Of a stretch of 11,548 nt of DNA, positions 247-11,548 are shown one piece after another. Every line of letters begins with the position of its first letter. Within the stretch, counting starts at the first letter, position 1. The notes under the pieces were generated by a model. It had not been told where the DNA came from. It saw nothing but the letters and a program-made list of their open reading frames with translations, and did no database searches. Origin of the DNA: Tannerellaceae bacterium (GTDB lineage: Bacteria > Bacteroidota > Bacteroidia > Bacteroidales > Tannerellaceae); assembly GCA_031265595.1 (NCBI GenBank), contig JAISCM010000149.1:1-11548 (forward strand), written 5' to 3'. The position numbers were made by a program, and so were the translations under genes.

Positions 247-1236
247 TTATTTCACGGGATAATCCGTGTAATATTTATCAATATACTTCTTAAACAGATT
301 CAGGCTCTCGATAGATGATTGGATGGGATCGGCCTTCCCTTCAAATTCGAGGGTGATATAGCCGCGGTAGTCTGCATCATAGAATATTTTGATGATGCGG
401 TCGTAATCCAGCTCAAGCGAGTACCATGTGCCGCCACCCTGATAGGTTTTGCAGGAAACGAAGGCACAGTCTCCGATGATCTTTTCAATCTTATCGTATG
501 GCTCTTCAAGGAAGTTGCCTGTGTCGAGTAAGAACTTCAGCCATTCGGAGCTGACGCTGTTCTTGATACGGATCATACCGTCGGGCGTGCCGGCAATACC
601 CCAATGATTTTCAAGCGCCATTACTACGCCGCACTTTTCGGCGGTGGGGATACATTTATAGATACAGTCTTGCACCCATCCGAAACCATCGTCGAGCGTA
701 TAGCCATCGATGAGCGGTTCAATGCCGCGCGCTTTCATCAGGTCGTTGAACGAACCGGTTGTGCCCCACGTGCCCGAGTTGAGGCGGATGGCCGGAATAC
801 CCATATTGTAGGCAAGTTCGATGCAGCGAATCGTGTGTTCAACCATGCGCTGGCGGTATTCGGGATGCGGGTCTACAAAGTCTTGATGGATTGAGAGGCA
901 GGCCAGCGTTACGCCGTTGCGATAAGCCGTCTGTTTGAGCTTTTGGCAATAAGCGTTGTCTTCGCTTGGCATGCTTCGGTGGAGGATGTCAACAGCATCA
1001 ATGCCGAAGTCGGCTGCTGTGAGAATACTTTTTTCAATTCCGTCCGGGTCGCGGCGGAAACTTTGCAGGCTGTAAGTAGAGACGCACAATTTAGGACGTC
1101 CCTTCACGCCTGCGCTCGTCTTCATTGGAGCAGGAGAGGGAGATTCGGGGGACGCTGCCCGTGCCAAACCGGAAAGCCTCATACCTGCTGCGCCGGCTAT
1201 GCCGGAGGCAAGACATGATCTGCGTGATAGATTCAT
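247..1236 (-). CDS. Tat-exported TIM-barrel sugar isomerase/epimerase (xylose isomerase-like family)
   Basis: A 329-residue protein of the sugar phosphate isomerase/epimerase (AP endonuclease 2-like TIM barrel) superfamily. The N-terminus carries a twin-arginine signal (SRRSCLA, residues 4-10), a small hydrophobic stretch and an ALA-rich cleavage zone near residue 28, so the enzyme is probably exported folded with its metal. The barrel begins near residue 48. Likely metal or catalytic acids are E209 in MALENHWG, D238 in LLDTGN, and E297/E299 in ITLEFEG. Family members isomerise or epimerise sugars and inositols; in Bacteroidota some relatives act on 3-keto-glycosides, and an extracytoplasmic location would fit that better than a phosphosugar substrate. 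This last point is inference. It is the last gene of the operon, starting 20 bp after susD ends. Fold is confident; substrate is unknown. Confidence 0.82.
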   Translation of the reverse strand: MNLSRRSCLASGIAGAAGMRLSGLARAASPESPSPAPMKTSAGVKGRPKLCVSTYSLQSFRRDPDGIEKSILTAADFGIDAVDILHRSMPSEDNAYCQKLKQTAYRNGVTLACLSIHQDFVDPHPEYRQRMVEHTIRCIELAYNMGIPAIRLNSGTWGTTGSFNDLMKARGIEPLIDGYTLDDGFGWVQDCIYKCIPTAEKCGVVMALENHWGIAGTPDGMIRIKNSVSSEWLKFLLDTGNFLEEPYDKIEKIIGDCAFVSCKTYQGGGTWYSLELDYDRIIKIFYDADYRGYITLEFEGKADPIQSSIESLNLFKKYIDKYYTDYPVK

Positions 1237-1256
1237 GATTATTTAGTTTAATAGGA

Positions 1257-2792
1257 TTAATATCCGGTATTCTGTATCAGGTTCTCATTGATTGACAGTT
1301 CGCTGCTGGCGATCGGGAGATAGTTGTCTCTCTCCACCTTATATCCGTTGGGGAATTTCACTTCAATCCTGTTGCCGTTATCGTCCTCTACTATACAGGG
1401 ATAAAGTTCCGGGCCGGCTTTCCAGCGCTTGATGTCATCCCAGAACTGTCCTTCAAATGCCAGCTCGATGCGGCGTTCGTGACGCAGTACTTTACGGGCT
1501 TCCGCCTGGCTCAGGCCATGTTGGACAGATGTGATTTTTACATCGTTGCGTTCTGTACGGATGCGGTTGATGAGGTCGATGGCTTCGTTGATCTGCTGGT
1601 TCCTTTCGATGAGCGCTTCTGCACGGCAAAGCAACACATCGCCGTAACGAAGCACCATAAAGTCGAGGTCGGACTGAAACTCAACCACCTGACGGGTTTC
1701 AATAAGATACTTACGAATATTGAGGCTTACAGCCAACGCTTGCGCATGTTTATGGATTTCCGTTGGAAACAGTTGTCCCTGGAAATAAGCGCCGGGTCGT
1801 ACGATGGTAAAATCAAGACGCGGGTCTCTGTTCTCGTATGGCTTTCCCGGATCTACAGGCGAGCCGTCGATTGTTTCATACTCGCGAACAAGTGCATACG
1901 TAGGATACGTAGAACTCGATCCGTCCATGCCGTACTTCAGGTTTTGAGGCTGAAAGTAACGGTCGAAGCAACTACCCTGGCTGTTTGGCCCGCTTGCGAA
2001 GCTGAGAGCATACAGCGTTTCGGCGTTTCCTTCGTTTTCAGGTTGGAACAAACCATAGTAAGAGGGATAGAGGCTGTATTTATTCAGCGCGTCAATCTTG
2101 TCGCAATATTCCAGCACTTCGGCCCATTCCGAATTATAAAGATAGGCTTTCATCTTCATTCCGAGGGCGGAGCCTAACGTTGCCTGACCGCTCTTACCGT
2201 CTTTGGCAAGTCGTTTGATGGCTTCGTCATAGTCGCTGAAAACTTGTTTCCAGCTATCTTCTTCGGTAGCACGCACAAGTTCCTTCGATTCGGCGGTAGT
2301 GATCACTTTCGTTACAATCGGTATGCCGCCGTAAGTCCGGGTAAGAAGATCGTATGCAAGCGCACGGAGGAAATAGGCTTCTCCTATCACTTGTTCTTTT
2401 TTTGCCTTGTCGTAGCCAGGTATCTTATCGATATTTTCGAAAAGATAGTTGATGCGGTAAACCATCTGGTAGCAGAACTGCCAGCGGCGGGGAACAATCA
2501 GATTGGTGGTTGGCGATATCGTACCGTTGCCTACATAAGCCAGACGGTTTTCCCAGCTTGCCCACTGATAAGCATTGGGCGTAGCGGCGTCAATACCGGG
2601 GCCATAACCCAGCATACAAATGTCGGTCAATGATCTGTAGCATCCGTTTAACGCCATGTCGGCGTCGGCAGGTTCTTCCCAGAATGTGGCATCTGTGATC
2701 TGATCATCCGGCAAAACGTCCAGATAATCGCTACATGCATGAAAGCCTGTTAATATGGCTAAGGCAACTATGCCTGTCAATATCTTTTTCAT
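1257..2792 (-). CDS. SusD/RagB-family outer-membrane glycan-binding lipoprotein
   Basis: A 511-residue SusD-like protein forming the outer lid of the SusC transporter and binding the glycan at the cell surface. The start chosen is the ATG at 2792, giving MKKILTG, a hydrophobic stretch and a lipobox cysteine at C20, followed by SDYLDVLPDD, the normal SusD beginning after lipidation. The open frame continues 98 codons further upstream, but that part overlaps susC in another frame and has no SusD likeness. Family landmarks are KEQVIGEAYFLRALAY (132-147), the TPR helices around it, LRYGDVLLCRAEALIE, the IELAFEGQFWDDIKRWK motif, and the C-terminal QNTGY. It starts 26 bp after the susC stop, the usual tight pairing. 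Length is normal. The ligand cannot be read from the sequence. Confidence 0.95.
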   Translation of the reverse strand: MKKILTGIVALAILTGFHACSDYLDVLPDDQITDATFWEEPADADMALNGCYRSLTDICMLGYGPGIDAATPNAYQWASWENRLAYVGNGTISPTTNLIVPRRWQFCYQMVYRINYLFENIDKIPGYDKAKKEQVIGEAYFLRALAYDLLTRTYGGIPIVTKVITTAESKELVRATEEDSWKQVFSDYDEAIKRLAKDGKSGQATLGSALGMKMKAYLYNSEWAEVLEYCDKIDALNKYSLYPSYYGLFQPENEGNAETLYALSFASGPNSQGSCFDRYFQPQNLKYGMDGSSSTYPTYALVREYETIDGSPVDPGKPYENRDPRLDFTIVRPGAYFQGQLFPTEIHKHAQALAVSLNIRKYLIETRQVVEFQSDLDFMVLRYGDVLLCRAEALIERNQQINEAIDLINRIRTERNDVKITSVQHGLSQAEARKVLRHERRIELAFEGQFWDDIKRWKAGPELYPCIVEDDNGNRIEVKFPNGYKVERDNYLPIASSELSINENLIQNTGY

Positions 2793-2818
2793 TTTAATAT
2801 GTATTTGAATGATTGTCA

Positions 2819-5800
2819 TTAGAATGTTATATTTAAGCCCACAGTAAAGACTCTCGGCACCGGGTAATGGAAGTTGCCGGATTCTGAGCCGTCGCGTTCG
2901 GGGTCGAAGCCCTCGTAGTCTTTTGTTACCCAACAGTAGAGATCGGAACCATTCAGATACACGTACAAGCGTTGCAGCTTTAGTTTGTCGATGACCGTTT
3001 GCGGAACGCTGTATCCTATCTGCAGGTTTTTCAGCTTCACCCACCACATATCGGCTGTCCAGAAAGAGCTGGCATAGCCAAGCCATGAATAGTTGACAGC
3101 GATTCTCGGCAACGTCGTGCCCGGATTTTCAGGCGTCCAACGATTCTCCCAGCGTTTGGTGATCGTGCCACCGGATGTATTAAGCGGCTGCGACCAGTAA
3201 TTATTGAAATACGATGTATAACCGGCCGAACCTGTGAACGAGAAATTCAGATCGAAGTTTTTATAGGCGATACTACCATTCAGGCCATAGTTGAATTTGG
3301 GGATCGTATTGCCAAGTACCTGCATGTCTTTGTTGTCTATCTTGTTATCCTTATTGACGTCTACATATCTCAGGTCGCCGGCTTTTGGTTTGATGCTGTT
3401 GTCTTTCATGTGTGCGGCAGCTTCTTCATCGCTTTGATAGATGCCATCCCATACATAGCCGTAGAGAGACTGGAATGAATAGCCTTCACGTATCAGGAAG
3501 GTCTGGTCGGGGGATTTACCGCCTTGAAACTTCGTTACCTTATTATCAACATAGGTGATATTTCCGCTGAGGCGATATGACAGTCCCGAAGCGCGGTTGC
3601 GATCCTGCCAGGTAGCATTTACCTCAAACCCTTTATTGATCACTTCTCCGATATTTTCGGTTGGAGGCGTCAGGCCGCCCATTGCCAGAGGAAGGGGCAG
3701 AGAAACAAGAATATCAGACGTTTTCTTATAGAAATAATCCGCTTCAATGCTCAGGCGATTGTTCAGGATGCCAACGTCAAGGCCTACGTCGCTTGTTGTA
3801 GTTGTTTCCCAGGTCAGGCCGTATTCCGACAGGGCCGTTACCGCTGCTCCTGCTGCCAGTGAATTGCCGTAATTGTAGCTTGTTTCATAGTTCTGACTTA
3901 CGATCGTCAGATACGGGAAGTAATCGAGGTTATTACGATTGCCGGTATTCTGATTGCCGAGCTGGCCGATAGACGCCCTGAGCTTCAGGTTATCAAAGAA
4001 ACCCTGATTTTTGATGAACGATTCTTCGCCAAGCCGCCATGCTGCCGAAACAGAAGGGAAATACCCCCAGCGCTTGTTTGGATTGAACCGCGACGAAGCA
4101 TCCGCACGAAGATTGACTTCCAGCAAGTACTTGCTCATCAACGCATAATTAACACGTCCGAAGTACGACAACATTCGCCATTGATAACGGTTTCCCTGGC
4201 CTTCAATATTATCTGTGCCGGCGCTTACCTGATGTAAGATCGGTTTGGGCGGATTCATACGGCTGGCCCGGGTGTAGCGCTTATTCAGCCCTTCCTGTTG
4301 ATAGCCAAGAACGCCGCTGATCTCATGAATGTCATTGAATGTCTTGTCGAAATTCAGGTTGGCAAAGAAGGTAGAATACCATTCGTCGTTGATACGGCGG
4401 GAATTGGTGATATTCGTGATATAGTCGAGCGATTTCGTATACCCGCTTCCATCTGTTCCGGTGTAGCAATAGTTTGGCGTATTGTAGACATCGAGCGTAT
4501 TATTGGTATATTGTCCGCTGTAATTAACCGTCAGGTGTAGCCAATCGGTAAAATCGGCCGACGCATACACATTGCCGCGGAAGAAATTATTCAGTGTGGT
4601 AGACTGGCCGTTGTACAGGTCGGGGAAAGGATTGCGTGTATCCACCACCGGCTGTCCGGCCAGATTGCCCGAAAGATAAAGCGCCTGCGTAGCGCCGAAG
4701 GTTTTACCGTCTTGCAGGTAGGGCGTAGCAAACGGATAGCCGAAAGCAGCCAGGTACAACGCACGGCTAATGCCACTTCCGGAAGCCGTAATAGATGATT
4801 CGGGAGCATAACCGGGGGCCAGATCCTCTCTGCGTTGCAAACGGGCGCGCGCTCCAACGCGCAACCAGCTCTTTATCTTAGTCTCGTTATTCAGGTTTAA
4901 GCTGTATCGTTCCGACGATGTATTCCGCATGATACCCTCATTGCTGAGGTAAGACAGCGAAACATTCGTACTTGAACTTTGGCTTCCGATATTAACCGAC
5001 AAATTATGCGATGTGATAAACGAATTTCTGAAGATCTCTTTTACAAAGTCGGTATTCGGATACCGGTATGGATCCGTTCCGCTGCGGAATGCGGCAATTA
5101 CATCATTCGGAAACAATTGAGACGTCCCCGTATTCGCGCGCGCTTCGTTCCAGAGCTCCATAAAGTCGGCGCTATTGGTGATAAACTCAGGCGAATGCGA
5201 CAGTTGCTGCACACCCGCATAGCCGTTGTAAGACATGCTGACACGACCCGCTTCGCCCTTTTTCGTTTCAATCAAAATAACCCCGTTGGCAGCACGCGAG
5301 CCGTAGATGGCTGCCGAAGCTGCGTCTTTGAGCACCGTGATCGATTCGATGGCGTTCGGATCAACTTCCGACATACGTCCCTCGATGCCATCAATCAATA
5401 CAAGAGGATTCGGGTCGCGCGAATCGGTAGCTGTTCCCAGCGAACCATATCCACGGATACGGATGGTTGCGCCGTCTGTTCCCGGATTGCCGGAGAACTG
5501 CGTAGCCCATACGCCAGGCACTTTCCCCTGCAATACCTGCGACACATCGGTTATGGGGCGGTTTTCCAGTTCCTGGTCATACTTCACCGTCGTCACGGCG
5601 CCAGTGAGGTTGACTTTCTTCTGTGTCCCATAGCCTACAACTACCACTTCGTCCAACGCCTGCAAATCTTCCTTCAGCGCAATCGTAATAGTTGCCTGAT
5701 TCTTTACCGGAATGCGTTGCACGATATACCCGATATAGGATATTTCCAGTATTGTATTCTCTTCTACAGGCAAAGAGAACGCTCCGTCTATATCCGTTAT

Positions 5801-6310
5801 CACCCCGTTTGTAGTTCCCGCTTCAATCACATTGGCTCCGATGATGGGTTCGCCCTGTTCATCGGTGACTGTTCCGGTGATTTGTTTTCTTATCTGTTGC
5901 GGAAAAGGAGCGCCAGCCTTGCCGGGTTGCAGATCATTCGTTTTATATAATATGATATGCCTGTCTTTTATTGTATAGCTGATTTTTTTCCCGGTGAATA
6001 GCTGATTCAATATTTCCAAAACCGTCTTGTCTTCTATCTCTATGGAGACTTTGCGGCTGGCGTCAATCTGTTTGGTGTTGTAAGTGAAATAAAATTCGCT
6101 TTTCTTTTCTATTTCAGACAACACCTCCTGTACAGTCGCATCATTCAGCAGCAGGGATAATCTGGTAGCTTGCGAGTAAGCGTTATTTGCTATTGAATGT
6201 AATGTTCCTGATAAAAGGAACACAAAGACACATCTCATAATAACTAAACTTTTTTTCATCCACGGCATTCTTTTCCGACGCCATGAATTGTTTTTCATAA
6301 CAGAAATCAT
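2819..6310 (-). CDS. SusC/RagA-family TonB-dependent transporter with STN signalling domain
   Basis: A 1163-residue outer-membrane importer. From the N-terminus: basic leader and hydrophobic signal (to about residue 46, NNAYSQA); STN secretin/TonB short N-terminal domain (about 52-123), the part that contacts a FecR anti-sigma factor; a carboxypeptidase-regulatory-like beta domain (about 143-215, ITGTVTDEQGEPIIGANV); a TonB-box-like stretch (219-229, LDEVVVVGYGT); the plug (about 232-352, with VLIDGIEG and IYGSRAANGVILIETKKG); then the barrel, ending in a terminal phenylalanine (FTVGLNITF) as outer-membrane barrels do. The frame opens at 6310; a second ATG at 6298 (MKNNSWRRKR) is equally plausible, and one at 6259 (MKKSLVIM) is possible. 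The STN domain and the fecR gene immediately upstream indicate substrate-induced trans-envelope control. No frameshift or truncation is seen. Confidence 0.96.
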   Translation of the reverse strand: MISVMKNNSWRRKRMPWMKKSLVIMRCVFVFLLSGTLHSIANNAYSQATRLSLLLNDATVQEVLSEIEKKSEFYFTYNTKQIDASRKVSIEIEDKTVLEILNQLFTGKKISYTIKDRHIILYKTNDLQPGKAGAPFPQQIRKQITGTVTDEQGEPIIGANVIEAGTTNGVITDIDGAFSLPVEENTILEISYIGYIVQRIPVKNQATITIALKEDLQALDEVVVVGYGTQKKVNLTGAVTTVKYDQELENRPITDVSQVLQGKVPGVWATQFSGNPGTDGATIRIRGYGSLGTATDSRDPNPLVLIDGIEGRMSEVDPNAIESITVLKDAASAAIYGSRAANGVILIETKKGEAGRVSMSYNGYAGVQQLSHSPEFITNSADFMELWNEARANTGTSQLFPNDVIAAFRSGTDPYRYPNTDFVKEIFRNSFITSHNLSVNIGSQSSSTNVSLSYLSNEGIMRNTSSERYSLNLNNETKIKSWLRVGARARLQRREDLAPGYAPESSITASGSGISRALYLAAFGYPFATPYLQDGKTFGATQALYLSGNLAGQPVVDTRNPFPDLYNGQSTTLNNFFRGNVYASADFTDWLHLTVNYSGQYTNNTLDVYNTPNYCYTGTDGSGYTKSLDYITNITNSRRINDEWYSTFFANLNFDKTFNDIHEISGVLGYQQEGLNKRYTRASRMNPPKPILHQVSAGTDNIEGQGNRYQWRMLSYFGRVNYALMSKYLLEVNLRADASSRFNPNKRWGYFPSVSAAWRLGEESFIKNQGFFDNLKLRASIGQLGNQNTGNRNNLDYFPYLTIVSQNYETSYNYGNSLAAGAAVTALSEYGLTWETTTTSDVGLDVGILNNRLSIEADYFYKKTSDILVSLPLPLAMGGLTPPTENIGEVINKGFEVNATWQDRNRASGLSYRLSGNITYVDNKVTKFQGGKSPDQTFLIREGYSFQSLYGYVWDGIYQSDEEAAAHMKDNSIKPKAGDLRYVDVNKDNKIDNKDMQVLGNTIPKFNYGLNGSIAYKNFDLNFSFTGSAGYTSYFNNYWSQPLNTSGGTITKRWENRWTPENPGTTLPRIAVNYSWLGYASSFWTADMWWVKLKNLQIGYSVPQTVIDKLKLQRLYVYLNGSDLYCWVTKDYEGFDPERDGSESGNFHYPVPRVFTVGLNITF

Positions 6311-6374
6311 AATTTTGTAAATGTTTTGTTAGTAATAAATTAAAAAACTCACCAATGCATTACTTGCAAAATCG

Positions 6375-6404
6375 GAACCGGGGATATTGGCGTATCTTCG
6401 GTTC
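6375..6404 (-). promoter_or_regulatory. Two-step hairpin in the fecR-susC spacer
   Basis: GAACCG and CGGTTC close an outer 6-bp stem. Inside it, GATA and TATC form a second 4-bp stem around CGCCAA, separated from the first by a 2x2 internal loop. It lies 43 bp past the fecR stop and 64 bp before the susC start, directly after an A/G-rich tract in the transcript. There is no U-run after it, so it is not a standard terminator. It could be a processing or leader structure. Confidence 0.4.
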
Positions 6405-6406
6405 AT

Positions 6407-6429
6407 TTTCTTTCTTTCTTTCTTTTTTT
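6407..6429. repeat. TTTC tetranucleotide tract followed by T7
   Basis: Four perfect TTTC units (6407-6422) run into seven T residues (6423-6429), giving GAAA repeats and poly-A on the transcribed minus strand. It lies in the 137-bp spacer between fecR and susC. Such tracts can change length by slipped-strand mispairing, and an A/G-rich leader can also aid translation in this phylum. Four units is short for an active contingency tract. Confidence 0.6.
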
Positions 6430-6447
6430 ACTCCATAGGCTATCTGC

Positions 6448-7425
6448 TTATCGTTTGAAAATTTGTATACTATTCCCGTCCATTTCATAATCTAATTCCC
6501 TTGTTTCTTTCAGGCGATCAAGAAATTGTATTAACGTTTCATCAGGCGTCGATTTCGTTGTAAACAACTCTTCAGACAATGGCCGGTCGGGTATTGAAAT
6601 CCTTACATCGAACTGACGCTCCAAGTCTTTGACTATGCCCGACAACGGCTGATTCACATACACGAACGCTCCGAATATCCATGCTTTTACTCCTTCTGTC
6701 TTGATTTGCCGGGAAAGCGTGATATGGCCGTTCGCCTCTGAAATACAAGCCTGTTCGTTGGGCTTTAATATCAGTTTATTCTGTTTGTCTGAAGTAGTTA
6801 TTTCCACTTTCCCTTTCAATAGCGTAATAAAAGAAGTTTCTCCCTTATAAGATTTCACATTGAATTTGGTACCTAATACCTTTATTTCCGATAAGGCAGT
6901 TTGTACCGTAAACGGATGTTTTTCGTCACTGAATACGTCAAAATAGCCTTCTCCGTCAAGGCTTATATGCCTGTTTTTGGCAGAAAAATCAGATGGATAC
7001 TTCAGTTTGCTTCCTGCATTCAGCCATACTGTTGTTCCATCGGGCAAGGAAAGTAGCGCCCGTTGCCCAACCGGAGCTTCAAAACATACATACGCCGGTT
7101 CAGACCGTTTGCTTCCATAATACTGATATAAAGAGAAAATACCTGCCGCCAGCAGGATAACCGCCGCGTACCTGACCGCCTGAAGCATGATTCTACGGAT
7201 AAATACGTTACGGACTTTTTGCTTGAAACCTTTGTATTTACGTTGCGCATACGCCTTATCTCCTTCCTTTTCCTGCGCCATGACAAGAGATAAGGTATTC
7301 AACTTATCTGCAAACTCTTGCTGAAGAACGTTATCGCCATCCAATTCTTTCAAAACAAGTTGCTTTTCTTCATCCGATAAAAGATTAAAAAGGTATTTAT
7401 CTATGTCTTCTTCCATTAATGCCAT
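6448..7425 (-). CDS. FecR-family anti-sigma factor, inner-membrane regulator of the sus operon
   Basis: The protein from the ATG at 7425 is 325 residues: MALMEEDIDKYLFNLLSDEEKQ is a typical cytoplasmic sigma-binding N-terminus. A single membrane helix follows (RYAAVILLAAGIFSLY, about residues 86-101 from this start), then the periplasmic FecR domain with LPDGTTVWLNAGSKLKYP, GEGYFDV and VLGTKFNV, and a C-terminal DUF4974-type domain (VNQPLSGIVKDLERQFDVRI). It should hold an ECF sigma factor inactive until the STN domain of the SusC next door reports substrate. The frame remains open to 7476, but that extension (KRPKKIKRPK) is encoded by an 18-bp tandem duplication and is unlike the family; an ATG at 7416 is also possible. 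Oddity: no ECF sigma gene is found on its upstream side, where it usually lies. Confidence 0.92.
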   Translation of the reverse strand: MALMEEDIDKYLFNLLSDEEKQLVLKELDGDNVLQQEFADKLNTLSLVMAQEKEGDKAYAQRKYKGFKQKVRNVFIRRIMLQAVRYAAVILLAAGIFSLYQYYGSKRSEPAYVCFEAPVGQRALLSLPDGTTVWLNAGSKLKYPSDFSAKNRHISLDGEGYFDVFSDEKHPFTVQTALSEIKVLGTKFNVKSYKGETSFITLLKGKVEITTSDKQNKLILKPNEQACISEANGHITLSRQIKTEGVKAWIFGAFVYVNQPLSGIVKDLERQFDVRISIPDRPLSEELFTTKSTPDETLIQFLDRLKETRELDYEMDGNSIQIFKR

Positions 7426-7461
7426 TCTTTTTGGTCGTTTAATTTTTTTAGGTCGTTTAAT
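7426..7461 (-). repeat. 18-bp tandem duplication abutting the fecR start codon
   Basis: Positions 7426-7443 and 7444-7461 are two adjacent 18-bp units sharing GGTCGTTTAAT and matching at 16 of 18 positions. On the minus strand each reads roughly ATTAAACGACC plus an A-rich tail, and the last unit ends directly at the ATG at 7425. They could be a duplicated operator or a translation-control element in the leader. If translation began further upstream they would encode the repeated peptide IKRPK. Confidence 0.75.
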
Positions 7462-7510
7462 AATAAAGTCGTACAAGAACGAGACAATAACTATAGACGG
7501 AAAGTTAATG

Positions 7511-7545
7511 TTTGTTATTACTGTACTTCACGCGGGGTAGCTTTG
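7511..7545 (+). promoter_or_regulatory. Candidate Bacteroidota housekeeping promoter for the plus-strand block
   Basis: TAGCTTTG at 7538-7545 is an exact match to the TAnnTTTG -7 box of Bacteroidota. A TTTG at 7511-7514 could serve as the -33 box, but the 23-bp gap is a little longer than usual. Transcription would begin near 7552, a few bases before the repeat at 7561, and would carry the repeat as a leader into the susD remnant and the rhamnosidase gene. The match rests on one short motif. Confidence 0.5.
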
Positions 7546-7560
7546 TACAGACGCTACACA

Positions 7561-7685
7561 TTTCTTCATACAAAACTATTGAAAAGATCGCATCAGTTTC
7601 CTGTTTTGGTCGCATCCTATTGATCGTACCACCCGGGTGGTCCAAGTGTACCACCTGGGTGGGACAGATGGACCGCCCGGGTGAG
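7561..7685 (+). repeat. Dispersed palindromic repeat, left copy, right arm missing
   Basis: The first 67 bp (7561-7627) match 11097-11163 at 65 positions, in the same orientation. Three core units follow at 22-bp spacing: 7630-7651, 7652-7673 and a partial one at 7674-7685, each carrying CACCCGGGTG or a close variant. In the complete copy the core is followed by an inverted right arm. Here the match stops after GGGTGAG at 7685 and susD-like coding sequence begins at once. The repeat happens to be open in the susD frame, but that translation (around PPGWSKCTTW) resembles no protein domain. Confidence 0.92.
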
Positions 7686-8855
7686 GAAAAGAAACAAGTA
7701 TTTATTGGAGAAGTGAAGTTCTTACGTGCTTTCTTCTACACCACATTGGCCCGTTTGTTTGGTGGAGTCCCTATCATGACGCATCCATTAGCCTTGAATG
7801 AAACGATTCCGCCAAGAGATTCTGCTGAGGATGTTTACAATTTCATTATAAACGATCTGAATGAAGCTGCTCAATTACTCCCCCTGGAGCGAAAAGATCA
7901 GGCGGAAATAGGACGTGCAACGCGAGGTGCGGCTCTTTCTTTGAAAACAATTATAAGTACATATTTCAATAAGTATGATGTTGCAGCGAGAACCGCAAAG
8001 GAAGTGATGGACTTAGGAGTTTATGGGTTAGTTGACAACTATGAAAAACTCTTTCATCCGGTTTATGAGAACAGCAAAGAAGTGATTTTCGATCATCAAT
8101 ACCTGGAGAATGCAAAAGACTTCACCGAAGGTAGCCTTATTGATCAGGCATTCGGGCCGCAAACATATAGCGGCTGGGAAGCAGTTTCGCCTACGCAGGA
8201 TCTTGTCGATACCTATTATTGTATAGACGGAAAGCCGATTGCCGAATCTCCATTGTATACGCCTGAAAGTCCTTATGAAAACCGTGATCCGCGTCTTGGC
8301 TATACCGTCTTATGGGAAGGCGCTATTTTTGCAGGAAAAGCATACACGCCCCAGACTGGTGCGGCAAATGCTACCCGTACAGGATATACATTTCGTAAAT
8401 ATATAAATCCTGACAATGATGGATGTACCCGACCGGGGTGGACCAATTTCATTTATATGCGCTATGCCGATATCTTATTATCTTATGCGGAAGCTCAAAA
8501 CGAGATTAATGGCCCGGATCAGTCAGTTTATGATGCAGTGAATCAGGTACGGCAACGTCCAAGTGTGGAAATGCCTCCGCTTTCTGCCGGATTGACGAAA
8601 GAACAGATGCGCGAAGAGATTCGACATGAAAGACGAGTTGAGTTTGCATTTGAAGGCATTCATTTGTTGGATACCCGCCATTGGAAAATAACGGAAGAGA
8701 TCATTTTGAAACCTGTATATGGCGCTATTAAAGATGGAAAACATATATTTGTGGAACAAAGGAAGTTTAATCCCGAAAAGGATTACCTATGGGCTATTCC
8801 TCTGAATGAGATCAATTTGTCTAGAGGAGCATTAACACAAAATCCAGGATATTAA
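7668..8855 (+). pseudogene. N-terminally truncated SusD/RagB-family gene
   Basis: SusD likeness begins at 7686 with EKKQVFIGEVKFLRAFFYTTLARLFGGVPIM. This aligns with residue 132 onward of the complete SusD in this window, so about 133 residues are missing, including the signal peptide, lipobox cysteine and first ligand-binding segment. The remainder looks intact: RHERRVEFAFEGIHLLDTRHWK, a YADILLSYAEAQNE helix, and the terminal LTQNPGY. The only nearby in-frame ATG (7668) lies inside the repeat; the open frame reaches a TTG at 7512, which falls within the putative promoter. No matching susC gene is present. A product made here would be cytoplasmic and unlipidated, so it is called a pseudogene. 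Its frame is still open, suggesting a fairly recent event or tolerated readthrough to the gene 17 bp downstream. Confidence 0.85.
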
Positions 8856-8872
8856 TATTTTAACAAAGTACA

Positions 8873-11086
8873 ATGAGAGACTTATTATCAAAGAGATTTT
8901 TTTTATCTACGATCGGATTATTCATCTGTGCCTGCCTGCAGGCACAGAGTCCGGCGTTTGATCCGTTGTTGGATCCGGCTTGTGAGGTGATTAGCCAGCC
9001 GAATGTGGAGGAGTGGAGGAGTTCTTATATGTGGTACCCGGGACAGTTGAGCGCTCACATGCAGAAATATCATAAACAGAAATCTGCGGAAAGATGCACT
9101 TATGTGGGATATCCGGGGAAATTCAACAAGGATGTTTACGCTTCTTCTTTTCGGAAGACGGTAACGCTTCAACAAAAGACAGCGTTGGGATGGAGCGGAC
9201 CGGGGGCAATTAGTTGTACTGTGGATGGACAAAAGTTAGACGAAGCCGTTCGTAATCACGTGCTGGAGGCGGGAACGCATACACTCGTTTTTGATGTCTT
9301 ATCCGCCGATCACCTACCTTGCCTGATTGTTAAAGGTGATGGTGTGTCGGAACAGAAGGGTTGGCAAGTGAGTCTGGATAATAAGCATTGGAACACACCG
9401 GAAACGGATCCGCGATACAACAAACCTTCGTTCTTACCTGACGGTGAACTGGAAATAACAGTCCGCATACTGCCAGATAACTATATTTTACTACGGAATG
9501 CAACCAACAAAAACGGAAAGTTGGAACTTGGTAAGAATGCACAGATTATTATTGATTTCCGTCATTTAGAGGTGGGGTATGTTAAGCTACGTGCAACAGG
9601 GACGGGCAATTTGTCTTTTTTCGTTGGTGAAAGTACTGAAGAAGTACTGAATGATAACCTGAAAGATTTCGAACAGCGGCCAATAGCGCGTTTTACTTTG
9701 GCAGATAGCATACAGGAAATAACACTACCGGTAATGGCTTTGCGTTATGTAAGGATTGAGAGTGAGCAATCTTGTTCTATTTCCTTTGTCAGCTTGGATG
9801 CGATGGTATGGCCTGTTGAGTTTCAGATGCAGTTCGAAAGTAGCGATCCGAATCTGAATGATATGTGGCATGCTGGTGTTGCTACTTTGCATACTTCGAT
9901 GCATAATTTCTATTTGGATGGTGCGAAACGGGATTATCTACCTTGGTCGATGGATGCTATTGTAAGTTCGTTTGCCAGCGATTATCTGTTTGGTGACCAA
10001 CAAGTATCCCGGAATGGCCTGTCGATTGCGTTAACGCCTCCCCAGCCGGAAGTAAGCGATCTGGGTATTGTGGATTATCCCTTACATGCGTTGATCGGTT
10101 TTAAACAAAATTACTTGCGTTATGGCGATATCAATACCTCCTTGTTATTTAAGGATCGGATCATCCAGATGCTTGCTTTGTATGAGTTTATCCAAGATGA
10201 AAACGGTTTTATTTCCGATAAATATTCAACGGCAGGCTTTATTCCCGGATGGGCAACAAAGATGGGGCCGAGCGGACAAGGCATACCGGCTTACGGACAG
10301 ATCATGTTGTACCAAAACTATGTTATAGGCGCTTATTTCGCCCATCTCTGGAAAGAGAATGCTTTGGCAAAGAAGTATGAGGGAAAAGCGGCTGTGCTCC
10401 AACAAAACATTATGAAACATTTCTGGGATAAAGACCGGAAAGCCTTTATCAATGGCTATATGATAGATGGAGAAAAAGATACGCGTGTGTCTCATCATGC
10501 GCAGTATTGGGCCATGCTGGCAGACCTGTTTCCACCGGAAGATTACGATCATTTGTACAATGTTGTTATCCCTAATATCCCTTATTATAAGGAAGATGTC
10601 AGCTATGAAAAGGGATATGAGTTTCTATCTTATATAAAAGCAGGGCGTGTCCGGGATATGTTCTCCCTGCTCAATCTGGTTTGGGGCGATTGGTTGCAAC
10701 AAGGCCATACGCGTTTCCCGGAAAACTTCTCACAGCAAGCATCATTGAAACAACAACTCGTCTTTTATAGCCGGCCTTATGGATTAAGCCTTTGTCATGG
10801 TGGCAATGGTGTTCCACCCGTCGTGGCTATATTGCATGGTATTTTCGGTTTCTCCCAATCCGACAAAAAAATCTCGGAGTATTCCCTGACCCCGCAACTC
10901 TTAGACTTACATTGGGTAAAAGGCAGAATCCCGTTGAAAGAAGGATATATCAATCTTGATATCCGTAAGAATGGAACAAGCACGATCGAGATACCGGAAA
11001 ACTGCATCATTTCCTTAAATCTAAATGACGGGAAGAAACCTGTGAGCTATAAAAAAGCCGGAAAATACGAATTTATTTATCAATAA
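8873..11086 (+). CDS. Secreted GH78-type alpha-L-rhamnosidase
   Basis: A 737-residue exported glycoside hydrolase. A signal peptide (KRFFLSTIGLFICACLQAQ, residues 7-25) probably directs it to the periplasm. Residues about 30-315 are beta-sandwich modules typical of bacterial rhamnosidases. The (alpha/alpha)6 catalytic domain spans about 320-665, and a small beta domain closes the protein. The GH78 acidic cluster is visible as DGAKRDYLPWSMD (349-361): D349, R353, D354, W358 and D361 keep the family spacing, with Asp at the position that is Glu in some characterised members. E617 in HTRFPENF is the likely second catalytic acid. It would release terminal alpha-L-rhamnose from plant or bacterial glycans; the exact substrate is not readable. 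It begins 17 bp after the susD remnant, so both were probably co-transcribed. Its base composition looks more AT-rich than that of the minus-strand susC. A divergent family member of other specificity is possible. Confidence 0.82.
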   Translation: MRDLLSKRFFLSTIGLFICACLQAQSPAFDPLLDPACEVISQPNVEEWRSSYMWYPGQLSAHMQKYHKQKSAERCTYVGYPGKFNKDVYASSFRKTVTLQQKTALGWSGPGAISCTVDGQKLDEAVRNHVLEAGTHTLVFDVLSADHLPCLIVKGDGVSEQKGWQVSLDNKHWNTPETDPRYNKPSFLPDGELEITVRILPDNYILLRNATNKNGKLELGKNAQIIIDFRHLEVGYVKLRATGTGNLSFFVGESTEEVLNDNLKDFEQRPIARFTLADSIQEITLPVMALRYVRIESEQSCSISFVSLDAMVWPVEFQMQFESSDPNLNDMWHAGVATLHTSMHNFYLDGAKRDYLPWSMDAIVSSFASDYLFGDQQVSRNGLSIALTPPQPEVSDLGIVDYPLHALIGFKQNYLRYGDINTSLLFKDRIIQMLALYEFIQDENGFISDKYSTAGFIPGWATKMGPSGQGIPAYGQIMLYQNYVIGAYFAHLWKENALAKKYEGKAAVLQQNIMKHFWDKDRKAFINGYMIDGEKDTRVSHHAQYWAMLADLFPPEDYDHLYNVVIPNIPYYKEDVSYEKGYEFLSYIKAGRVRDMFSLLNLVWGDWLQQGHTRFPENFSQQASLKQQLVFYSRPYGLSLCHGGNGVPPVVAILHGIFGFSQSDKKISEYSLTPQLLDLHWVKGRIPLKEGYINLDIRKNGTSTIEIPENCIISLNLNDGKKPVSYKKAGKYEFIYQ

Positions 11087-11096
11087 GGATAAGCCG

Positions 11097-11266
11097 TTTC
11101 TTCATACAAAACTATTGAAAAGATCGCATCTGTTTCCTGTTTTGGTCGTATCCTATTGATCGTCCCACCTGGGTGGTACAACTGTCTCACCCGGGTGGTA
11201 CACCTGTCTCACCTGGGTGGTACACCTGTCTCACCTGGGTGAGACGATCAATAGGATGCGATCAAA
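11097..11266 (+). repeat. Dispersed palindromic repeat, complete copy with inverted arms
   Basis: The first 67 bp match the left copy at 65 positions. The left arm is 11141-11164 and the right arm 11243-11266. They are inverted over 24 nt with two mismatches, both G-U pairs in plus-strand RNA. Between them lie three full 22-bp units (11166-11187, 11188-11209, 11210-11231) and a partial fourth, each containing CACCTGGGTG or CACCCGGGTG followed by GTACAMCTGTCT. The outer core units can also pair, extending the hairpin inward by ten more pairs after one mismatch. It begins 10 bp after the rhamnosidase stop codon and could act as a 3' end or stability structure. No T-run follows it, so ordinary intrinsic termination is not supported. 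Confidence 0.93.
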
Positions 11267-11372
11267 CGATTACTTATTCACCATCAATACAATAAAACGA
11301 TGAGATGATTGTATGACTTTTGCAGGTGATTCCCCACGTATGGCTAAGCGTTCTTTCTACAACCCAATCATA
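11267..11372. other. Spacer between convergent genes, no gene seen
   Basis: Convergent spacer between the repeat and the end of the GH30-like gene. It holds an AT-rich inverted repeat, ATACAAT (11287-11293) with ATTGTAT (11308-11314), too weak to call a terminator. A further hairpin, AATCACA (11375-11381) with TGTGATT (11388-11394), overlaps the stop codon of the GH30-like gene and could mark its 3' end. No open frame here has protein-like composition. Confidence 0.5.
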
Positions 11373-11548
11373 CTAATCACAGTTTAGTGTGATTGTATTG
11401 AATGACTGAGGCTTTACTGAGAGGGAAACCGTGTGGTCGCCGATTTTTATAGTAGGTTTGATCTCGGTGTCGTTTGTGTTGTGGATTACCAGTACGTAGC
11501 TGCCGTCGGTGTTGCGGAAGGCCATCAGGTCTGTAAATTCGCCGGATA
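11373..11548 (-). CDS. C-terminal end of a GH30-like glycosidase (partial)
   Basis: The stop codon is TAG at 11375-11373, and 57 complete codons run to the window edge. The peptide contains DLMAFRNTDGSYVLVIHNTN followed by KIGDHTVSLSVKPQSFNTITL. This is the pattern of the beta-sandwich that closes GH30 enzymes (glucosylceramidase and beta-1,6-glucanase relatives): a line like AFxNPDGSxVVVxxN, a short strand, then a PxSxxT strand. The catalytic barrel is outside the window, so activity and subfamily cannot be judged. It converges on the rhamnosidase gene, with the complete repeat copy between them. Another glycosidase with a similar C-terminal sandwich is possible. Confidence 0.7.
   Translation of the reverse strand, partial: SGEFTDLMAFRNTDGSYVLVIHNTNDTEIKPTIKIGDHTVSLSVKPQSFNTITLNCD

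Follow-up and report, generated by a model that had tools for sequence, protein, structure and literature searches.

The locus examined here raises the question of how a susD gene that has lost its front part came to lie, together with a rhamnosidase gene, between two copies of a palindromic repeat. The stretch of DNA analysed (the window) comprises 11,548 bases from a Tannerellaceae bacterium (contig JAISCM010000149.1) and is probably one whole short contig (GH78 protein record P0121, three member sequences). Copy 1 of the repeat lies beside fecR and copy 2 beyond a gene for a GH78-type α-L-rhamnosidase-like protein. An initial annotation had proposed that recombination or deletion at the repeat removed a susC and the front of a susD, or that the repeats carry a movable cassette. 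The reading favoured here, at a probability of about 0.5, is that copy 1 is an element broken at a rearrangement that would have removed the susC and the susD front by microhomology deletion, with an exchange between the leaders of the two copies and the element itself passive. Coordinates are collected in Table 1.

Dispersed and intergenic, the repeat measures about 225 bp and has three parts: a leader of 67 bp, a palindromic array in which four 10-bp dyads follow one another at 22-bp spacing, and a tail. Copy 2 is complete, and its outer arms (CCTATTGATCGT, on either strand) at 11152-11163 and 11244-11255 overlap the ends of the array; copy 1 lacks the array end and the tail. Comparison with relatives at other loci extends copy 2 to about 11324, beyond the end at 11266 that had first been assigned. 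Direct comparison of positions confirmed that the two leaders lie in the same orientation and match at 65 of 67 positions (97%), whereas the arrays match at 41 of 56 (73%; Fisher p = 1.4e-4). The two-dyad core pattern, with up to two mismatches, occurs five times in the window against 0.01 expected (200 shuffles), and all five occurrences fall within the two copies.

Copy 1 ends where susD begins. The susD fragment encodes the last 389 residues of a 512-residue SusD, the first 123 codons being gone, and aligns to residues 124-512 of the SusD from locus L001 (340/389 identical), titled uncultured Parabacteroides sp. and one of three genome loci encoding a relative of the window GH78 protein. 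Nucleotide homology to L001 starts at 7682 (window CCCGGGTGAGGAAAAGAAACAAG against L001 ATGAATGAAGAAAAGAAACAGG; onset 7682-7685), and the GGGTGAG of the array has TGA or TGAG in common with susD at this point. The left copy had been said to end exactly where susD homology begins, which holds to within 2-4 bases at a junction known from one contig. At the equivalent point copy 2 continues with another dyad, the closing arm and the tail; because of this continuation, and because 18 of 20 loci in relatives have four dyads, copy 1 looks truncated rather than ancestral. Traced upstream, the susD reading frame runs through copy 1 without a stop as far as a TTG at 7512. An insertion of the element into susD was considered and dropped, since the tail is missing on the susD side.

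What is absent from the block can be read from L001, which supplies an intact susC-susD-GH78 operon: it keeps sigma factor, fecR, susC, susD and GH78 in order, as in SusC/SusD-type polysaccharide utilisation loci under extracytoplasmic function (ECF) sigma/FecR control, whereas the window lacks susC and the susD front. The nearest SusD over the retained part (P0029; 225/234 identical) likewise has an intact N-terminus, and between the two repeat copies there is neither a susC nor a transposase or recombinase gene. The earlier claims of a block without a susC partner and of a lost susC and susD front are thus both supported. P0029 itself stops after residue 357 plus two residues (longest contig 11.9 kb, JGI among the sources), a second and different truncation of the same susD gene in a close relative.

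The repeat is not private to the window, and a search for further copies yielded many loci in relatives. With positions 11070-11340 as query, six full-length relatives were found on six contigs of genome G550 (68-72% over 202-228 bases) and one in G594 (77% over 242 bases), all of which share leader, array and tail with copy 2, with similarity fading at about 11096 and 11324. As their flanks differ, the element is dispersed. L095/L124 was rejected as the orthologous site of copy 2, its flanks (a GH28-like gene, by eye, and a SusD gene) showing a different locus. In G003, the genome of L003, the array lies at 15 contig places (25 matches, both strands counted). The two-dyad pattern occurs in two of the four genomes of this genus (24 and 31 matches per strand), the reversed control pattern gave no match, and a DNA query of the family of G003 matched only the same two of 120 genomes.

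A strict core pattern gave one match in 393 Bacteroidales genomes (G203), which appeared unrelated by eye. Because variants with other letters escape this pattern, a sequence-only model (R1) was trained on 19 arrays, namely window copy 2, 17 arrays from G003 and G431, and one from G011. R1 matched copy 1 at 7618-7685 and, at E ≤ 0.001, 53 of 123 genomes of the family of G001 and 3 of 198 sampled genomes of the order, including G004, a member of the genus of G001; it reports each array on both strands and scores limited candidates, so that its counts are not copy numbers, and weak single matches may be chance. Matches were also obtained in G007, whose array L111 scored low. At 20 loci of G003 and G431, four dyads at 22-bp spacing were present in 18 (counting one-change dyads, and two compensating changes in L060), two dyads in one, and a contig end cut the last; a further G003 array outside these twenty has three. 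Outside these two genomes the constancy of four is partly built in, R1 having been trained on four-dyad arrays.

Broken copies exist in relatives as well. Genomes G563 and G549 contain a leader-only remnant (L149) and tail-only remnants (L150, L151 and L152) in which R1 detects no array. In L188 (G563) and L189 (G549) the flanks of the G550 locus L148 adjoin with no array between them; the right flanks are only 70-72% alike, the alignment is poor and shows no clean target duplication, and L188 retains the ten outermost leader bases (by eye). The flanks of the G550 element L145 are 7.5 kb apart in G549, while those of L146 fall on separate contigs in G549 and, in G547, occupy opposite strands at a distance of 29 kb. 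In these draft assemblies, such separations are consistent with rearrangement at elements.

The contrast between leaders and arrays in the window gains weight from orthologous sites of G003 and G431, where array-bearing segments are 99.6% (L042/L058) and 98.4% (L049/L057) alike, compared with 84-96% in the segments next to them; for the L043/L060 region the figure is 78%. Arrays are thus kept at orthologous sites and not hypermutable, which makes the contrast notable. Past the leader, the window copies are no more alike than the six G550 paralogues, whose leaders are 70-87% and whose arrays are 61-88% alike. To judge from these alignments, a recent exchange of leader sequence between the two window copies would be the likeliest explanation of the leader likeness. 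Some G003 and G431 arrays (L043, L045 and L054) are flanked by the repeated words GCATGAAGT and GGCTATAGGAAAGTCGTG, in partly mirrored order by eye, which suggests nested repeats.

What we infer from these data is a deletion, with its order and polarity, and an exchange between the leaders. The break would have occurred within the palindromic array of copy 1, and microhomology of 2-4 bases would have joined the broken end to mid-susD sequence. Such a deletion would have taken the right end of the array, the tail, a susC and the first 123 susD codons, leaving susD-GH78 without a transporter partner. By homologous recombination, later or in the same event, the leaders may then have exchanged sequence, and the part played by the element would have been passive, that of a breakpoint and a stretch of homology rather than that of an active mover. 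Long hairpin-forming sequences are known to promote breaks and deletions. Copy 2 (11097-11324) is predicted to fold, as RNA, into a long, nearly complete hairpin of -98.2 kcal/mol (z -10.5), and the fold predicted for the copy 1 stretch has a z of -4.4.

Several observations weigh against this deletion. The ancestral order fecR / element / susC-susD-GH78 was seen in no genome compared. Of 123 family genomes, only 5 encode a relative of the GH78 protein (E ≤ 1e-150), and G550, G595 and G597, which have the closest left operon, are not among them. Two elements within 3.5 kb are dense when set against the 15 places in the 3.1 Mb of G003, a density that a deletion in place leaves unexplained. The fused open frame has a best full-length match of 83% and none that is near-identical among the 120 matches listed, from which the window's own fused frame is also absent. 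The window genome offers only two copies for comparison, and strong constraint on the leader could account for its likeness as well.

The closeness of the two elements would be explained if a closed piece, running from the middle of susD through GH78 to a donor leader and array and closed at the array/susD junction, had entered a resident element between fecR and GH30 by recombination through the 67-bp leader. Such an insertion predicts two direct leaders around the block, copy 1 truncated onto susD, an intact copy 2, and matching leaders beside arrays that diverge as paralogues do. It requires two steps, however; neither a circular intermediate nor a donor locus nor a fecR/element/GH30 site was found, and other genes lie upstream of the orthologous operon in six relatives (L086-L089, L091 and L092). 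The insertion is held to be a possible but distinctly less probable origin, and the deletion, which needs fewer unusual intermediates, is preferred as the most likely. An assembly chimera, in which the contig would join two places of a metagenome at the repeated palindrome, must be weighed in view of the probable nature of the window as a whole short contig, of the repeats as typical points of misassembly, and of the fused frame with no near-identical protein among those 120 matches. The junction, however, leads from the array into unique susD, which a shared repeat alone cannot produce, GC content shows no step there (fecR 0.41, truncated susD 0.43, GH78 0.44), and broken copies occur in other assemblies too, all of which renders a chimera unlikely.

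The movable cassette of the initial annotation, with the repeats as ends of a mobile unit carrying susD-GH78, could draw on the direct repeats around the block and on the dispersal of the element. It is nevertheless very improbable. The block begins inside a gene and encodes neither a transposase nor a recombinase; the two copies around it are not equivalent, and copy 1 has lost the array end and the tail. Inspection by eye showed no clear terminal inverted repeats and no clear target duplication, and collections of phages, plasmids and viral contigs yielded no match. Of the earlier proposal, the loss of susC and of the susD front stands, a recent leader exchange is likely, and the cassette is not supported.

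In the literature searched, with most subscription papers outside reach, no description of this repeat family was found. As far as the accessible parts of the sources go, its nearest printed relative is BrickBuilt of Porphyromonas gingivalis and P. gulae (PMC4596501), an intergenic element with a leader, 1-22.8 tandem repeats of 23 nt (units of about 22-23 nt), a tail and GAGACC IS5-type ends, which forms a long predicted stem-loop, is present in 19 copies in one strain and lacks the leader or the tail in some copies. The window element resembles this account in its leader, repeat units and tail, its intergenic and dispersed positions, its long predicted stem-loop and its partial copies, and non-repetitive leaders and tails were seen in copy 2, L124 and the six aligned G550 copies. 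It differs, by description, in a spacing of 22 instead of 23 nt with dyads in each unit, in the four dyads of most copies in place of a variable repeat number, in leader-only and tail-only pieces without an array, in its spread over many genomes of a family, and in that no GAGACC IS5-like terminal inverted repeats were seen. Its edges read GTTTsTTC... and ...TTACGACTTCTA in the alignment (by eye), and the ends are weakly alike. Like a miniature inverted-repeat transposable element (MITE) it is dispersed, short and non-coding, but its inverted repeats are the internal arms and its edges are not clear inverted repeats. According to a resequencing study of P. gingivalis, copies of insertion sequences (IS) or MITEs account for two thirds of the assembly gaps (PMC5771137). 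Repetitive extragenic palindromes and their mosaic elements (REP/BIME), described in the available text as palindromes of 20-40 bp with GTAG/CGTC tags and RAYT transposases (PMC3733652; REP sequences are also treated in PMC12306157), share the intergenic, palindromic and dispersed character and are set apart by size, the window element being about 225 bp long with four phased dyads, a leader and a tail.

As to the normal role of the element, a transcription terminator or an mRNA 3' hairpin would agree with the very stable predicted fold and with the convergent genes on either side of copy 2 (those around copy 1 are divergent). No terminator (hairpin plus T-run) or promoter was predicted within 7561-7685 or 11097-11324, however, and the whole window gave no Rfam match at the gathering score. 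Of 26 elements in G431, G003 and G550, all but one lie outside called genes, the other (L044) overlapping a called frame. Where both neighbours were called (18 elements), 11 pairs were tandem, 7 divergent and none convergent, against 47, 13 and 7 for other gaps of at least 100 bases at those loci, as counted with a home-made gene caller on draft contigs; if the frame overlapping L044 is spurious, its neighbours are convergent. Such a role is held to be improbable. No gene family recurs beside the elements: of the 39 neighbours compared (40 were called and one was left out), no more than 2 share a Pfam family.

Pairing was assessed in 18-19 four-dyad arrays, with L049 and L057 representing one and the same orthologous array. 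Complementary outer dinucleotides were seen in 13 of 18 arrays (6.1 expected), and symmetric partner dinucleotides across one long hairpin are commoner than expected (14/54; 7.2 expected). Symmetric dinucleotides flanking the cores (7/72; 14.5 expected) and the linkers (4/54; 11.4 expected) are rarer, and single variable positions pair less than shuffled ones (225 vs 240; 1975 of 2000 shuffles at least as high). In 56 arrays from many lineages (of 59 examined, L111, L123 and L199 were set aside because they scored low), there is little difference at the core between local, long-hairpin and decoy pairings, the register having been chosen to maximise local dyads and having settled on the linker in a few cases. 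The geometry of the lattice recurs across these arrays and the letters vary by lineage: the core reads CACCnnGGTG in G003, G431 and G550, GACCnnGGTC in G004 and CACAnnTGTG elsewhere. Where more than one copy of a genome was read, the copies agree in the first three and broadly in G004, but the three G069 arrays mix CACC and GACC cores. L056 carries a paired change on both arms (TTCTCG / CGAGAA for TTATCG / CGATAA), L059 on one arm only.

Tentatively, this family-wide intergenic lattice might be a binding platform for a fast-changing putative DNA-binding factor, at which neighbouring loci would recurrently be broken or reshaped. With similar reserve, it could be described as seven 8-bp dyads alternating every 11 bp on one helix face, with symmetric arms. 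The putative factor might conceivably be a chromosome organiser, a regulator or a mobilising protein, and the element may instead be MITE-like.

Table 1. Features of the window, in order of position.
Feature	Position	Strand	Remarks
Left operon (sugar isomerase-like gene, susD, susC, fecR)	247-7476	-	
fecR	6448-7476	-	left of copy 1
Leader of copy 1	7561-7627	+	65/67 = copy 2 leader; homologous leaders at other loci, G550 and G594
Truncated palindromic array of copy 1	7628-7685	+	three dyads, the third with one change (CGCCCGGGTG), then junction
Junction, array to susD codon ~124	7682-7685	.	2-4 bases (TGA/TGAG) fit both sides, compared with L001
3' part of susD	7686-8855	+	389/512 codons
GH78-type α-L-rhamnosidase-like gene	8873-11086	+	Bac_rhamnosid-like_N, Bac_rhamnosid6H
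Leader of copy 2	11097-11163	+	
Complete four-dyad array of copy 2	11164-11245	+	22-bp spacing
Tail of copy 2	11246-11324	+	3' edge approximate; conserved at six G550 loci and one G594 locus
GH30 gene, C-terminal end	11376-11548	-	Glyco_hydro_30C 9e-12; runs off the contig; convergent to GH78

In the surroundings of the block, no sigma gene was seen upstream of fecR in the window (7431-7560), and the longest open minus-strand frame in 7380-8900 does not exceed 93 codons; sigma genes adjoin fecR in L091 and L001. Within the left operon, nucleotide homology of susC to its closest orthologues (G550, G595 and G597) ends at 5655, beyond which the 5' part of susC and fecR have a GC content of 0.41 against 0.49-0.51 in the 3' part of susC, susD and the isomerase gene, and this susC looks like a mosaic. 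An origin of the fecR/5' susC half from the GH78 locus by inversion was dropped on the identities to L001, which are only 34% for fecR, 75% for GH78 and 87% for susD. Downstream of the operon, positions 8-94 hold a further short array with a GGCCGCTATCT-like unit at 21- and 44-base spacing, its lattice similar to that of the repeat and its letters different.

The repeat thus probably marks a site of DNA rearrangement, at which a broken copy is fused to a front-less sugar-uptake gene, and intergenic palindromic arrays of this kind appear to form a sizeable family in Parabacteroides-like gut bacteria. Should the arrays prove to be binding platforms, they would give access to a family-wide DNA-binding system of these gut bacteria; should they be fragile sites, they would help to explain the truncation and reshuffling of sugar-utilisation loci.

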